In this document: piece by piece, positions 946-64,000 of the stretch
Numbering within the stretch: position 1 is the first letter of the stretch
Layout of the letters: each line of letters starts with the position of its first letter
Assembly: GCA_016648135.1 (NCBI GenBank)
Contig: JADDOH010000477.1
Span: 62,001-126,000, forward strand
Direction of reading: 5' to 3'
Source: Agrypnia vestita
Lineage: Eukaryota; Arthropoda; Insecta; Trichoptera; Phryganeidae
Length of the DNA: 64,000 nucleotides
Made by a program: the position numbers and the translations under genes
The notes under the pieces: model-generated
The model's input: only the letters and a program-made list of their open reading frames with translations
Databases searched by the model: none
Told to the model about the DNA's origin: nothing

Positions 946-992
946 TTTGCGCCTTGTATTTCGAGTTCTGTTCAAAACAGATTCTGGAAAGG

Positions 993-1060
993 GAAAGTTC
1001 TAGATGCTTCCAGAAAGTTCTATAAGATTTCGAAATGCTCATGAAAGTTTTGAAAAGTTC
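993..1060. promoter_or_regulatory. Decayed heat-shock-element array
   Basis: Fourteen consecutive 5-bp steps carry alternating GAA-like and TTC-like triplets: GAA 993, TTC 998, GAT 1003, TTC 1008, GAA 1013, TTC 1018, TAA 1023, TTT 1028, AAA 1033, CTC 1038, GAA 1043, TTT 1048, AAA 1053, TTC 1058. That is the nGAAnnTTCn architecture bound by heat-shock factor, with some positions mutated. The DNA resembles the intact arrays in the Helitron end at 48.4-48.6 kb, so this is probably an older copy of the same module. Confidence 0.55.
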
Positions 1061-1126
1061 TCTCTAGAGTGTTATGATTGTGTGCTAAAATATCTGTTGA
1101 TATTTTGGCAAAGCGAAGGCGGTCCA

Positions 1127-1417
1127 GCAAGGAAATCCAATCACAGGTGCCGAAACCGGCAAAAAAGAGACGTCAACACAATTCTATGCTTACCGAATTA
1201 TGGTCCCGAGCGAAGCCGGGCCAGCAAGGCAATCCAATCACAGGTGCCGAAACCGGCAAAAAAGAGACGTCAACACAATTCTATGCTTACCGAATTATGG
1301 TCCCGAGCGAAGCCGGGCCAGCAAAGCAATCCAATCACAGGTGCCGAAACCGGCAAAAAAGAGACGTCAACACAATTCTATGCTTACCGAATTATGGTCC
1401 CGAGCGAAGCCGGGCCA
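1127..1417 (+). repeat. 97-bp tandem repeat, three units, with Helitron-like hairpins
   Basis: The marker AATCCAATCACAGG starts at 1134, 1231 and 1328, an exact 97-bp period with very few differences between units. Each unit carries GCCGAAACCGGC and CCCGAGCGAAGCCGGG, GC hairpins like those found just before Helitron 3' ends, followed by CCAGCAAG. A degenerate hairpin precedes the first unit near 1110. The overlapping reading frames here are open in several frames only because of the repeat. Reading it as an amplified Helitron 3' region is inference. Confidence 0.8.
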
Positions 1418-1494
1418 ACCAGCAAGTATTTTATAAATACAAATTTTAATTTCGTAACATCGACTTACTATCATTAATTATATACGAAAACGTA

Positions 1495-2768: not shown

Positions 2769-3727
2769 GAATTTTTTATTTAATTTAATGAATTGCTACA
2801 TTTCAATCTCAAGTTGAAGATTTTCATAAAAGATATACAAATTTCCATTATAGAATATTTTGCGAATTATGTTGTTGAGTAATTAAGTTACAATTGGTAC
2901 AAATTTTTACAAAAAATTTTAAATTGCAAAAATTTCACTATTTATATAAATATAATATAATATGTTTGCTCCATAAATCGGACTGACTTTTGTTTGTCTT
3001 ACTTTAAAATTTAATTTTTATTTAATTTAATGAATTGCTACATTTCAATCTCAAGTTGTAGATTTTCATAAAAGATATACAAATTTCCATTATAGAATAT
3101 TTTGCGAATTATGTTGTTGAGTAATTAAGCTACAATTGGTACAAATTTTTACAAAAAATTTTAAATTGCAAAAATTTCACTATTTATATAAATATAATAT
3201 AATATGTATGCTCCATACATCGGACTGACTTTTGTTTGTCTTACTTTAAAATTTAATTTTTATTTAATTTAATGAATTGCTACATTTCAATCTCAAGTTG
3301 TAGATTTTCATAAAAGATATACAAATTTCCATTATAGAATATTTTGCGAATTATGTTGTTGAGTAATTAAGTTACAATTGGTACAAATTTTTACAAAAAA
3401 TTTTAAATTGCAAAAATTTCACTATTTATATAAATATAATATAATATGTATGCTCCATACATCGGACTGACTTTTGTTTGTCTTACTTTAAAATTTAATT
3501 TTTATTTAATTTAATGAATTGCTACATTTCAATCTCAAGTTGTAGATTTTCATAAAATATATACAAATTTCCATTATAGAATATTTTGCGAATTATGTTG
3601 TTGAGTAATTAAGTTACAATTGGTACAAATTTTTACAAAAAATTTAAAATTGCAAAAATTTCACTATTTATATATAATATAATATGTATGCTCCATACAT
3701 CGGACTGACTTTTGTTTGTCTTACTTA
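2769..3727 (+). repeat. 242-bp tandem satellite, four units
   Basis: GAATTGCTACATTTC starts at 2790, 3032, 3274 and 3516, an exact 242-bp period. Units are nearly identical, differing by a handful of substitutions. The last unit has a 4-bp loss in an AT run. The unit is AT-rich and contains CTCCATACATCGGACTGAC. High identity means recent amplification or homogenisation. Whether it belongs to a larger genomic satellite cannot be told from here. Confidence 0.95.
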
Positions 3728-4740
3728 AGAATTATGAGTTTTTAATCAATAATTACGTTGAGATCGGAGTACCATAAAATAAAGGGAATTATATTCGTAT
3801 TGTGTCTTGAATGCAATTCAACTTGCGTCATGATTAAAAAGCTAAATTCTGGAATATTGACGTAGGTTTATTTTTTAGTTTTCATTTTAAAAAATAATAC
3901 ATATTATTTCAACATGTGGAAGTTAAAAAAAAAAATATTGGTAAAAAGCCCAAAAAGTAAATCAATTTTCTTAATTTCCAAAACATTGTTGGTTTAGAAA
4001 TTCACTAATTAATAAATAGTTTGGTTTGTGTCATTATGTAACTTAATTGATAAATTTAAATTTGATACTTATCCATACGAAAGTGCATGAATGCTATGAG
4101 AAAAAATTGTGAATTTTGCTTGTCTCGCCTTAAAGTGTCTGGCAAGATTTTTAGCTAAATTTGTGAGGGATGTGAAAATGCAGAAAAGTCGTCAAGTACA
4201 CGAAAACGATAAAGAATTCCGCAGTAGGTACCCTGACCGTAGGTTGTATCGCAGGTAGCCTCCCCATTAATAGGTTACCGGTTACCGTTAGGGGTAGAGG
4301 GTGGATGGTAGAGGGAGGGGGTAATGCTTTGAAGTGGTACCTGGCGGACGGGCAGTAATGATGGGGCGAGTAAAGCTACTCGAGCAATTCACTGTGCGAT
4401 CAATCTGCCGATTTATCGAGCGATCACGTGTTTACGAGTTTATGGAAGAGTAAATCCTGATATTTATTTGCGATTTTTGGGAGCGTTTGTTATGTTATTG
4501 TTGCAAATTGCGCGGCAATAAAGGTCTTTCTGAAAACGCGTTTACGACTGACAAAAACTATTAATACTTTATTTTATGCGTGATGAAAGCTAATAAAAAC
4601 AGTAAAGGATATTATAAATCAAGAATTTAACTAAAAGATATATCTAAAATATAATATAGTTTACCCGCAGAGGAAAAAATTATTTAGTAAAAATTTTACG
4701 TGAAAAAATACACAAGCATTAAATTAGAATCAGGAGCAAC
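3728..4740. other. Unassigned; contains a GC-richer patch at 4215-4440
   Basis: Mostly AT-rich. The patch at 4215-4440 is less AT-rich, with short direct repeats such as GGTTACCGGTTACCG and a purine run GGTAGAGGGAGGGGG. It has no coding signal and no clear splice sites. It could be a regulatory element or an old transposon end. I cannot decide. Confidence 0.35.
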
Positions 4741-46379: not shown

Positions 46380-48370
46380 ATAATTATTTACAGACACTTA
46401 CATGTTTGAATTTTCTAGTTCTATATTAATCCAAACACAGAAAGAAGGCCAGAAAATATAAGAAAGAAGCAAAAATATCTCAATAAATCTTCGAATGTAT
46501 GTTTAGACAGGTACCTATATTATTTTTTAAATTTTTATTATTATATATTATTTATTTATAAGTAATAAATGAATGTGTGCTTTAGAAAATTAATAAATTA
46601 ATGAATGTTGTTTATATATTACAGCATTTCAAGGACATTTTTACCAAATAATTTACAAAATAATTAAACCGGACCACCCTTTAAAAATTCCATATACGTT
46701 TTCCATGTGAATAGCTTCGTCTGTGAGACCGTTATAATTTTAATAAATAATTATCCCTTTGTAGACAACATCCATTAATTGTGTTCTCAGAACATACATA
46801 TAAATATTGTTAATAATATATTTTTTATATGAAGATTTTCGTTCACGACAATATAAAAAAATGATACGTAAAACAAATATTTATATACATTGTACCTACC
46901 TACGAATACCTACCTACGAAGTGCCAAAAAAGGCAATTTTCTTGAATTTTTTTAAGGAAACCTATATAAATTATGGTATCATTTTTACATAAAAGTAAAT
47001 ACTTTTATGAATAAGTTTTTTTTTATTAAAAAATATTCAACACTGGCGGAAAACTTATGGGGTTTGTCGACCGCCGAAAAAAAGGTCCTCCGTGGGGACC
47101 ACTCCCATTTCACCTGTAATCATCAGAATAAAAAATAAAAAAAATGATGTAAATTGATACTATAATTAAGTGTTTGATGTAGAAGTTTTTGAAAATATAG
47201 ATTTTTGATAAAATGACGATCGTTTGAATTTAAAATAGCGTTTTTTTAAGGAAAAATTCGGGTTTATTATACCGATTAATAAAACTAAGCCACTTAAAAA
47301 ATTCTATGACCAAGACTAGATAATTATGTATAAAATAACCACTAGAAATTTCAAGTTGATCGGTTTAGTGGATGCCGAAATATTTTGGTCATCAATTTTT
47401 AAAACATGTTTTGAGTAAAACATATTTGAAAATTGGGTAATGAATAAATCGTAAAATTTTTCAACTAACATAAAATAATCAATTTCAGATCCATTATATA
47501 AGTGCTCCACCTTGTTTTGAATCCCCATATCATCAAGCACTCTTCACGAACATAATACAAATATGTTCAAGGTTTCTATTATGAAAGATCCCGACTAGCA
47601 GCTACCTGCGTGTATCGCGATGCCGTGTGGCGAGGCGCGTAGTTAGCAAAAGGATGCCACTATTATCAGCTATAACTCTGTAATTTTTTTGAATTTTTGC
47701 TTAAAATTTTCACCAGACATTCAAAATTTAAAAATCTATTTTTTCGAAATGTCTAGGTAGGTATTCCCCCTTAAGTAAAAATTGAATTACTGAATTGAAA
47801 ATTGAAATATATATATACCAAATCCTTTATTTGCAAAACAACCTAATTCTTCATTCATTATATTAATTCAATTTAATTTCCTAAACTAAGGTGACCTTAA
47901 AAATACAAAATATATTTGGGCCCAAAAATATTTTGATAGAATTATACCTGGATCGCATTAATGTCGAAGATAAACTTGGGATCAAATAAAACCTTCGGCC
48001 ATATCAAATTTGTCGATACCTTTACAAAGCTAAATTGAAAGTAGTGATTCCATTAAGTCTTATCAACTGAAACGTAAAACATCGTTCGGTCTAAACAGGT
48101 GATGTTCACTTGAATCCAGGAATGAGAGTTTTAGAAATGTATGCATATATATATATTAAGAAACCCGTGTTTTCCTACCTGCCAAGTTTTCTCCACAACC
48201 AGCTACAATCACCCACCGGTGGATAGCCCTTGGTGTCACATCGAAAATATGCGAGTTTGGTGGGGGTGGCTGTGCGTGGGTGGGAGTGGTTGACGAAAAT
48301 GTGCTTTCTAGCACATTATTTTGTTATGGGATGGCCGCAAATGCTTCAGATTATTTCAATATAGGCGCGC
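46380..48370. other. Unassigned; possible DNA-transposon interior at 47040-47775
   Basis: 47040-47110 and 47585-47660 are GC-richer. The right edge GGTAGGTATTCCCCCTTAAG recalls TTAAGGGGG-type piggyBac/MITE ends, but no matching left end was found. The minus frame 47540-47316 lies in it and has no recognisable domain. Confidence 0.3.
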
Positions 48371-48438
48371 TGACTGTGTCGGTGAGTCTAAAAAAGGTTC
48401 CGGAAAAACCTGCTCTAAAAAGTTCTGGAAGGAGAAGG

Positions 48439-48471
48439 TTCTAGAAAATTCCCGAAAGTTCTATAAAGTTC
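48439..48471. promoter_or_regulatory. Heat-shock element array 1
   Basis: Perfect alternation at 5-bp steps: TTC 48439, GAA 48444, TTC 48449, GAA 48454, TTC 48459, then TAA 48464 and TTC 48469. Five consecutive exact pentamers exceed the three normally needed for heat-shock factor trimer binding. Further upstream, TTC 48398/GAA 48403 and TTC 48423/GAA 48428 are additional pairs. Confidence 0.75.
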
Positions 48472-48504
48472 TAAACTGAGTGGCGGAACGTGTCGGTGTG
48501 TCTA

Positions 48505-48578
48505 GAAGGTTCCGGTATATTCGATAAATTTCTTGAAAGTTTTGGAAGGAGAATGTTCTAGAAGGTTCGCGAAAGTTC
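48505..48578. promoter_or_regulatory. Heat-shock element array 2
   Basis: The first run is GAA 48505, TTC 48510, GTA 48515, TTC 48520, TAA 48525, TTC 48530, GAA 48535, TTT 48540, GAA 48545. The second run is perfect: GAA 48551, TTC 48556, GAA 48561, TTC 48566, GAA 48571, TTC 48576. Six exact pentamers in register are extremely unlikely by chance. It lies about 60 bp from the Helitron 3' terminus. Confidence 0.8.
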
Positions 48579-48639
48579 TATGACGATCCAAACAGTGTTC
48601 TAAAAATCTACGCGCGAAGCCGCGCGGGCACAGCTAGTC

Positions 48640-55713: not shown

Positions 55714-56010
55714 TGTCACGGGATCGTGGCTGCGGCAGTCAAATGAAACACCAAATTAATTAAATTAAAATAATAAATTAATTCAAATAAATTTACACTC
55801 GATTGTTTCTAGAATATTTCCCACAGCTACACTTCGCTGTACTTTTTGTATATCGATAGGTCGTTGTATCTATTTATGGCAGAAATGTCACAATAACTCT
55901 GCTCTTGCGTGCGCCGGGCGTTACTTTTATACAAAAATGTTGGTTTCGCGAATGTTCGAGAACATTCGACTAGTTTATCCATATTTCTAGTACTTAATGG
56001 TTTTTTCAAA
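55714..56010 (-). mobile_element. LTR (solo or fragment) with perfect HSE upstream of TATA, copy B
   Basis: The presumed 3' end reads CGATCCCGTGACA on the minus strand (TG...CA type, 55714). Reading the minus strand, an HSE block (55967-55945) is followed after 13 bp by TATAAAAG (55931-55924) and a GC-richer leader with GTAACGCCCGGCGCACGC. Another TTC-GAA-TTT set lies at 55807-55819. It is homologous to copy A at 53.2-53.66 kb. No gag/pol frames adjoin it, so it is probably solo. Confidence 0.6.
55945..55967 (-). promoter_or_regulatory. Heat-shock element, five perfect pentamers
   Basis: TTC 55945, GAA 55950, TTC 55955, GAA 55960, TTC 55965, exact 5-bp spacing, 13 bp upstream of the LTR TATA box on the minus strand. 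This promoter-proximal placement is like that in hsp promoters. Confidence 0.75.
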
Positions 56011-61649: not shown

Positions 61650-64000
61650 GTTTCTTCCCATCAACTGGACTGGTTCGTGTCAGCGCTAATTTAACTTCCG
61701 AGGTCCGCCGCTAGATGGTTCCATCTATCCGTAATGATATTCCACGCGAGTAACTTAATGCGTATTATCTGCCTAGATTTTCAGTTGTAGCGATATATCT
61801 TCTTGCAGAAGTTCTTGGAAACATTTGTGGTTATGATTATTGGTAAAACATCGAGTAATTCTGTTATCGAAAATCGAACATTTTAGAGATTTTATCTCTT
61901 TCTACCAGCCGCAAGCCAACTCTTGAGTTTGTCTCCAGATCGAATTTCTACATGAGTACATAGTATCGAGGTTTATCTCAATTAAACCTCGAAATTTACC
62001 TCATAGCGTCTTATAACGCGGATACGGATCAAAATGTCTAACATTTGAAAAATAATATTTTTTCATATTTCTATATTATGTCAAAACATTTTTATTACGA
62101 AAATTGGATTGACTTGGATGGCCGCTAGCTACATGTAACTGTCAACTTTTGCAAAGAGCAGACAGTATTTCCACTCAATCACATAAACTAGAAAAATATT
62201 TTTTATATATATTTAATATATCAAGAGACCTGGATAATTTGACACTTCTCGTGTACCAAATGAGTCTTAGTCGTATTCATCCTTTAAAAAAAAAGAATGC
62301 GTAAAAGAGTACGCATTTGTCTCAAACCCTTTTATAGGTCTAGGATTTGTGGGTTCCAAGCTGACTAACAATCTTTAATTTTATACATTCCACGATCTTA
62401 TTTAAATACCTTTAACAAGGGCAAGCACTGTCTAAATGCAATTGTGAAATTCAGTTTTTATTGAATTATACAAAAATAATTTAATTATAATTATATGAAA
62501 AAAAACGCTCTACATAAATATTTCAGACATTCACCATTGCAAAGAATATGAATATTTATTTTAAAATAATGTTCATGAATTTGTTTAAATAAATATAAAA
62601 ATTAAGCGTTCCGCACAACAGGAGAGGCTACTTGCAATTACACTAAAAGAATCACATGAAAGTCATGAAATATTGGTAGCTAACAATTGTTTTAAGCTTT
62701 TTGCCTTCACCACGGAAAAATATTAAAAAACAAAGAAGACAAAAACATAAAAAAATGACATTGTTCATCAAAAATATAAAGCAATGCATCAAATTTTAAC
62801 CCAAAATATTAGCATTATATTCTCATACGATAATTTGGCACCATTTTAATTATGGTCTACTATGCTAATTAAGACAACAGATATTTGCAAGGTCTAGTAT
62901 TAACCGTTGAATCGGTAAAGGTGTAAATACATATTATGTAAAACAAAAGGTATAAGTGAGACTTTTTTATTTTTATTTAAATATTACAAAATTTTCTGAC
63001 ACGCTATTAGTAACAAATTAAATTATTAAACAACTGACTACTGACAAATTCAAAACATATGTGACAAAAATGCTAAAACTCAGCCAATTATAAAACAAGA
63101 TTTTATATCTCAATTATATTATTATTATATTCCTATATTGAATCATGTAAAAAATGTTATCCATAAACCGTTTCAGGTTTCTATTATATTTTTAAATAAT
63201 TAAAAAAAAACACATATCTGTGTTATAAACAAAATATTTTTTTTTTAATTTTCCAAAATAATACTTTTTCCGATGAACTTAGCAAAGTAAACCTTATTTT
63301 TTTCAAAATAACAAAGTGGGATGAATAAAACAAACATGTTACGTAACGTGCAAAGAATAATTTCCGACAGACAAATTATTTTGATTAATGTAAGTAATTA
63401 CCAGTGTCTAAGAATAATTGAAGAAAATTCATTTTAATATAAATTATTACAGGAATATTCAGACTGCGAAGCTTTTAAGTTAAATGCCCAAATTTCAGGG
63501 TAAAAAGCCACGAGTCATGCTCAGGCTTCTTAGAAAACTTTTTAATTAACGACTGAGATAAAATTTCTTTTAAATTTGTAATTATAGTTCACTTCAAATG
63601 TGGAGATAACGGTTTAATTTCCATTTGTTTTAATTAATATTAAGCATTACGTTTGAGATTACGAAACATTTATATTTATTAAAGAAAAATATAATGTTTA
63701 TTACTTATGGCACTTAATAAAAGGAAAATTAATTTAGGGTAATATTCTATTTTCTTAGAATAATTACTTTTCGAGAATAATTATTTTAACGTAAAAATGT
63801 GCGGTTATTACAAAATAAATATATAATTTAACGCTTATTAAATATTTAAGTAGCTTTGAGATTGATAAAACATGCAGGAAACATTTGTATTATAAGAAAA
63901 TATTTTTTTCGTAATAACGCGTTTCCTTCTAAATCTTCAAATTCTTTGCCATGTTCGCCATGCCATTTCTAAAGACTACATTCTTCTGAAAATAACTACC
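61650..64000. other. AT-rich, probably intron of the candidate gene
   Basis: After a GC-richer tail to about 61740, this is uniformly AT-rich with no reading frame of note, no recognisable element end and no exon-like island. It fits a long first intron, but intergenic DNA is equally possible if the exons are not real. Confidence 0.35.

Follow-up and report, generated by a model that had tools for sequence, protein, structure and literature searches.

Helitrons that carry heat-shock elements (HSEs) are known from Caenorhabditis. The available text of Garrigues et al. (2019; PMC6927752) reports that HSF-1 binds HSEs within Helitrons in C. elegans and that these are enriched near induced genes, in agreement with the Caenorhabditis precedent mentioned in an earlier reading of the present locus made without database searches (the sequence-only reading). 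The elements named in that text are Helitron1_CE, Helitron2_CE and HelitronY1/Y1A/Y4_CE, the motif is given as NGAANNTCCNNGGAN in the results and as NGAANNTTCNNGAAN in the methods, and among the animal genomes tested the enrichment of HSEs in Helitrons is described as confined to Caenorhabditis. Induction of Helitron1_CE depends on HSF-1 according to the accessible part of Schreiner et al. (2019; PMC6765114), and a preprint (PMC13104882), as far as its open text goes, merely cites the worm case. No insect case of an HSE-bearing Helitron was found among the listed titles and abstract openings of the open-access literature.

The element described here resembles the Caenorhabditis elements, as these are presented in the available reports, in being a Helitron with dense, overlapping HSEs, and the Helitron share of HSEs, dominant in C. 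elegans, is dominant here among the first 50 listed places with six-pentamer HSEs. It differs in its host organism and in its layout, the arrays being placed in 115-bp modules towards the 3′ end of a non-autonomous element of ~0.5 kb. Moreover, the Rep/helicase mRNA of Helitron1_CE is induced by HSF-1 in the published accounts, whereas none of ten Rep regions here (of 102 matches) has HSEs, and the Caenorhabditis Helitron HSEs are reported as bound by HSF-1 whereas the present ones are predicted HSF sites. DINE-1 has internal repeats, as does the HSE Helitron, and the ONSEN-type elements of plants are heat-activated LTR retrotransposons with HSEs in their own promoter; ONSEN and the present element are both HSE-carrying transposons, but the present one is a non-coding DNA transposon and ONSEN is an LTR element. 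In being short, abundant and non-coding the HSE Helitron is like DINE-1 and the oyster Helentrons as portrayed in the open parts of the corresponding papers (PMC4067079, PMC7492417), and it is unlike them in having a canonical CTAG/hairpin end and a repeat module that is an HSE array.

From its sequence, the element appears to represent a second, non-Caenorhabditis instance of HSE-loaded Helitrons, in a host lineage that is plausibly insect-like. The published case, in its accessible text, concludes that such Helitrons may be restricted to Caenorhabditis (PMC6927752), and a second case elsewhere, with thousands of perfect six-pentamer sites, would imply repeated capture of the heat-shock response by Helitrons. 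Transposon rewiring of stress responses becomes testable in a new animal, with an array-free Helitron of the same terminus as a built-in control, and the element could carry heat responsiveness to new genomic sites.

An HSE-bearing Helitron copy

The window is the whole analysed stretch of 64,000 bp, positions 62001–126000 of its contig in a genome of 1.32 Gb. It contains one decayed copy of a ~0.5-kb non-autonomous Helitron at ~48142–48637 on the plus strand, with the following features.

48142–48637, plus strand: decayed copy of a non-autonomous Helitron, ~495 bp; the family consensus aligns to 48158–48637 at 92.9%
48369–48482, plus strand: HSE module 1, 114 bp, marked by a 25-nt direct repeat at spacing 114
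48483–48596, plus strand: HSE module 2, end approximate, placed by the 25-nt direct repeat and alignment to module 1
48434–48461, no strand: exact run of six perfect alternating GAA/TTC pentamers, the third consensus array
48551–48578, no strand: exact run of six perfect alternating GAA/TTC pentamers, the fifth consensus array
48611–48626, plus strand: 3′ terminal GC hairpin with a 6-bp stem and 4-base loop, folding at −9.3 kcal/mol
48634–48637, plus strand: Helitron 3′ end CTAG, followed by T at 48638; 39 of 40 copies end in the same CTAG

The 5′ boundary of the copy is approximate, the 5′ end being AT-rich with no clean TC visible, and pairwise homology to it begins at 48137–48147 in 17 of 20 other copies. 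The 5′ end expected of a Helitron is TC after A; by eye, TCAATATATA precedes the shared part in several rows of the alignment (including L025, L027, L028, L029, L032, L035, L038 and L039), and it is not clean in the window copy. No reading frame of at least 120 aa is present within ~48142–48637.

The two 114-bp modules proposed by the sequence-only reading are borne out by the 25-nt direct repeat, which starts at 48369 and recurs at 48483, and positions 48376–48476 of module 1 align to 48490–48593 of module 2 at 74.5%. The two six-pentamer arrays are 117 bp apart and stop 176 and 59 bp short of the 3′ terminus. The second had been described as six perfect pentamers at 48551–48578, exactly as we find it; the first had been described as five (48439–48461), and its pentamers are indeed perfect, but there are six of them, at 48434–48461. 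The alternation of GAA and TTC at exact 5-bp steps is real: when the 262-bp stretch is shuffled 100,000 times with its dinucleotides preserved, a six-pentamer run never arises, and the maximum of five was reached once. An HSE can be defined as three or more GAA pentamers in alternating orientation, spaced 5 bp apart, and the arrays of the window, the consensus and the genome are HSEs by that definition.

The 3′ end had been called a textbook Helitron terminus, and the GC hairpin, the CTAG and the T beyond it are present in the window copy, with the CTAG and T recurring in other copies. The window copy has the canonical arrangement of CTRR behind a short GC hairpin, and the hairpin (z −2.2) is equalled in folding by 7 of 200 shuffles. 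Among the 40 best-scoring copies (see below) the alignment reaches CTAG in 39, with L047 ending one base earlier, and a T directly follows the 3′ end in all 40, as it does in 20 of 20 termini taken regardless of HSEs. The flanks of 21 aligned copies are mutually unrelated by eye, with the exception of L026 and L031.

Family consensus and its arrays

A search of the genome with the 262-bp segment, which the sequence-only reading had suggested, gave 4,315 first-look candidates, and the 40 that were scored are all significant and include the window copy. These are the best-scoring copies of the 4,315 and thus a biased sample; they comprise 20 copies taken with long flanks, 19 with short flanks and the window copy itself. 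A majority consensus was built from 21 of the 40, and all 40 were aligned to it. Similarity spans ~495 bp in the longer matches, and some copies share just the 3′ 267–384 bp.

The consensus contains five arrays (of 3, 3, 6, 4 and 6 pentamers), amounting to 22 pentamers in ~190 bp, within modules of ~115 bp that lie just inside the 3′ end, and the six-pentamer runs are ~60 and ~177 bp from that end. Two of the five consensus arrays are retained in the window copy and all five are intact in 8 of the 40 best-scoring copies. At least one is intact in every one of the 40, and at least one six-pentamer run in 37, so the GAA/TTC periodicity is found in other copies, where its lack had been named as evidence against the sequence-only reading. 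Because the consensus is richer in arrays than most single copies, the arrays were present in the source element, and the HSE arrays are an ancestral property of this Helitron family.

At L043 (4778–5566) two HSE Helitron copies lie head to tail, with 3′ ends at C95:326644 and C95:327022 and the second copy truncated where the locus ends; the arrangement can be a product of rolling-circle transposition. In another copy (L095, 32–69) eight perfect pentamers follow one another without a break, and a small deletion appears to have joined two consensus arrays.

Genome-wide distribution

The genome has 8,508 places with six perfect alternating pentamers, compared with none for the reversed control and an expectation of ~0.05 from the base composition of the window; this genome-wide survey covers six-pentamer HSEs. 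The places inspected are the first 50 of the 8,508 in contig order, which is not a random sample, and all 50 are assigned to the family or to a relative, on spacer sequence for 46 and on flanking homology for four. The 46 have no more than two mismatches to the family's two arrays over the ten spacer letters, and blastn aligns the surroundings of the other four (C4:131155, C6:407081, C7:116935 and C7:117616; L092, L095, L096) with the Helitron consensus. Since spacers or flanks match in 50 of 50, each listed six-pentamer HSE is Helitron-borne or in a Helitron relative. Twenty hand-picked stretches that span 22 of the 50 listed places all match the consensus, and the CTAG terminus is found by a strict expression in 11 of them. 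In the window together with 20 stretches of ~5 kb, all selected for holding copies, the 10.3 kb of element contain 51 arrays with four or more pentamers and the 164.6 kb outside it two, and runs of three pentamers number 37 and seven, respectively.

The 24-base 3′ terminus has 3,089 exact occurrences in the genome (1,599 + 1,490), and none in the reversed control. Dispersal of the arrays by the Helitron, as had been claimed, accords with the 8,508 places and with the assignment of all 50 listed ones to the family or a relative, and on these counts the HSE Helitron family is evidently dispersed to thousands of places.

Fifteen viral contigs also have six-pentamer runs, with no Helitron end seen by eye in the 160 bases around each, so such runs also arise outside Helitrons. 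Among viral and bacterial/archaeal sequences nothing matches the exact and degenerate 3′-end patterns or the module pattern, and the blastn hits to phages and plasmids are all short (E ≥ 0.9).

An array-free Helitron with the same terminus

The first 20 listed 24-base termini were chosen regardless of HSEs, although the copies of six of them are also in the hand-picked six-pentamer sample. Of the 20, 18 have an array with three or more pentamers and 13 have a six-pentamer run, and the periodicity thus recurs in this set as well. In the two that are array-free (L111 and L123) the family match is confined to the last 42 bp, and their surroundings (L125 and L126) share 420 aligned bp at 85%. The corresponding HSE-free Helitron of ~0.4 kb is at L125 1870–2270 and L126 1853–2265 (repeats of 401 and 413 bp). 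It starts with TCTATACTAATATATAAA after an A, which we take to be typical of insect Helitrons, and finishes at the same CTAG with the same T junction. The existence of an array-free Helitron with the same terminal 42 bp shows that the arrays are not required for use of the terminus or for mobility. The earlier description of a 3′ end built from HSE arrays is therefore right as to their position near the terminus and wrong as to the 3′ end as such, which in this second family has the same 42 bp without HSEs.

A related HSE-bearing family

A further element is present near the left end of the window.

968–1450, plus strand: degenerate relative, separate from the window copy, with an HSE-like module and then a 97-bp tandem array; 982–1029 matches the consensus

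The relative has a three-pentamer run at 1008–1020, and the unit of the 97-bp tandem array (1112–1417) includes a Helitron-3′-like hairpin sequence. An exact 32-base tail (window 1087) is common to window 968–1450, L092 and L096, where it is reversed, and these three constitute a second HSE-bearing Helitron-like family. L096 (at C7) has about ten modules of ~115 bp, with 15 arrays and 59 pentamers in 1.7 kb.

Rep/helicase elements and HSF DNA-binding domains

The Helitron Rep domain (PF14214) has 102 matches in the genome, with four open frames of 1,565–1,605 aa, and two of the long Rep ORFs carry Rep, PIF1 and Pif1_2B domains. These uninterrupted frames belong to Rep/helicase Helitrons (L075–L078), of which L077 and L078 are 99.6% identical over 5.4 kb, which indicates recent activity of such elements. 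One Rep protein has an STPR domain, known from silk-moth proteins. Ten Rep regions (L075–L084; 10 of the 102 matches) have no array of even three pentamers; a recognisable terminus is present on four, different from that of the HSE family, and none was recognised on the other six. Among the twelve shorter Rep loci (L063–L074) the seven scanned contain no arrays, and one locus, L065, has a 20-bp consensus match (E 0.005). An autonomous partner with the HSE family terminus was not found among the ten Rep regions, and the true Rep partner may lie outside these 10 of 102. HSF DNA-binding domains are encoded at three places in the genome.

These regions bear on the idea that the arrays are a subterminal signal needed by the Helitron Rep/helicase at the 3′ end, their likeness to HSEs being coincidental. 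Such a signal would fit the window copy and the consensus, in both of which ~60 and 177 bp separate the six-pentamer runs from the terminus, but the ten Rep-bearing regions do without arrays, and the family with the same terminal 42 bp is array-free and yet recurs with an identical CTAG/T junction (two of the 20 termini). We regard a structural role of this kind as very improbable.

Conservation of the motif

Single insertions show no protection of the motif. In 18 unselected copies, non-CpG changes from the consensus affect 3.9% of GAA/TTC positions, 4.5% of spacers and 5.3% of the rest of the 3′ part (core versus spacer p = 0.58; core versus all the rest p = 0.13). The corresponding values in the 40 best-scoring copies are 2.9%, 2.2% and 1.8%, with more change in the core than in the remaining 3′ part (p = 0.004) and no significant difference from spacers (p = 0.23). 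A different pattern is seen between modules. In the two consensus modules, positions that are core in either differ at 2 of 39, compared with 13 of 60 others, which is a weak effect (p = 0.04); a comparison limited to positions that are core in both was dropped as circular, identity there being forced. When nine diverged L096 modules are compared with module 2 of the window family (one 31-bp fragment left out), agreement is 199 of 230 cells for the core (86.5%), 74 of 120 for spacers (61.7%) and 452 of 592 for other positions (76.4%), with p = 3e-7 for core versus spacer, although the cells are non-independent. In a phase control the L096 six-pentamer array scores highest in the true phase (0.885, next 0.867), but for the four-pentamer array a one-base shift is slightly higher (0.879 versus 0.843 at the true phase). 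Taken with the diverged modules, these values suggest that source elements retained the GAA/TTC motif.

An alternative is that the source element contained HSE-like sequence by chance, and that this was multiplied with the element and has no HSF role for either element or host. In its favour, the core letters are unprotected after insertion and, among the 40 best-scoring copies, are changed more often than the remainder of the 3′ half, and the modules are tandem duplicates, so that one lucky array yields several. However, the diverged modules keep GAA/TTC better than their spacers, with the phase control in agreement for the six-pentamer array and not for the four-pentamer one, and a chance origin sits poorly with a relative that has accumulated 15 arrays in 1.7 kb (L096). 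A purely neutral passenger is an unlikely alternative.

Possible role of the arrays

The account we favour, and think probable, is of a non-autonomous Helitron with five HSEs in two ~115-bp modules that has spread to thousands of sites, in which HSF binding aided the source lineage and the copies decay neutrally. We infer HSF binding of the arrays, and an effect on genes, from the motif. Under heat stress HSF trimers would bind the arrays cooperatively, and HSF so bound would open the chromatin and possibly activate flanking transcription. HSF binding may have exposed the donor DNA to Rep/helicase acting in trans, which would be why the source lineage retained and amplified the modules. Dispersed copies would then decay neutrally, a minority being free to turn into heat-responsive enhancers of nearby genes.

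The reader of the arrays could also be another protein that recognises TTC/GAA palindromes, such as a STAT-like protein, given that TTCNNGAA is a generic palindrome. STAT sites have a spacing of 3–4 bases. The strict 5-bp steps over six units, and over eight in the fused L095 array, fit HSF trimers better, and we consider such a reader very improbable.

A bolder version of the favoured account, in which HSF binding aided the source lineage, is that HSF dependence arose independently in a single Helitron lineage of a large genome, probably that of an arthropod, and that this lineage planted more than 8,000 six-pentamer HSF sites, nearly all of those in the genome. These would form both a heat-inducible enhancer network and an HSF sink that reshapes the heat-shock response, and heat would drive the spread of the element. 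We offer this as speculation that is doubtful as a whole.

Other features of the window

A DDE ORF is present at 49–489, with matches to four unnamed proteins and a DDE_3 match below the cut-off, and a 242-bp tandem repeat at 2773–3733 has four copies that are 98% alike. Elsewhere in the genome, L033 contains a TTAGG-like repeat, and this repeat and the STPR domain of the Rep protein suggest that the host is an insect or another arthropod. On the minus strand of the window at 55924–55967 there are five perfect alternating pentamers (55945–55967) with TATAAAAG 13 bp later, a layout that resembles that of a heat-shock promoter. Further along the same strand is the sequence ...CCCGTGACA (to 55714), which could be an LTR end.
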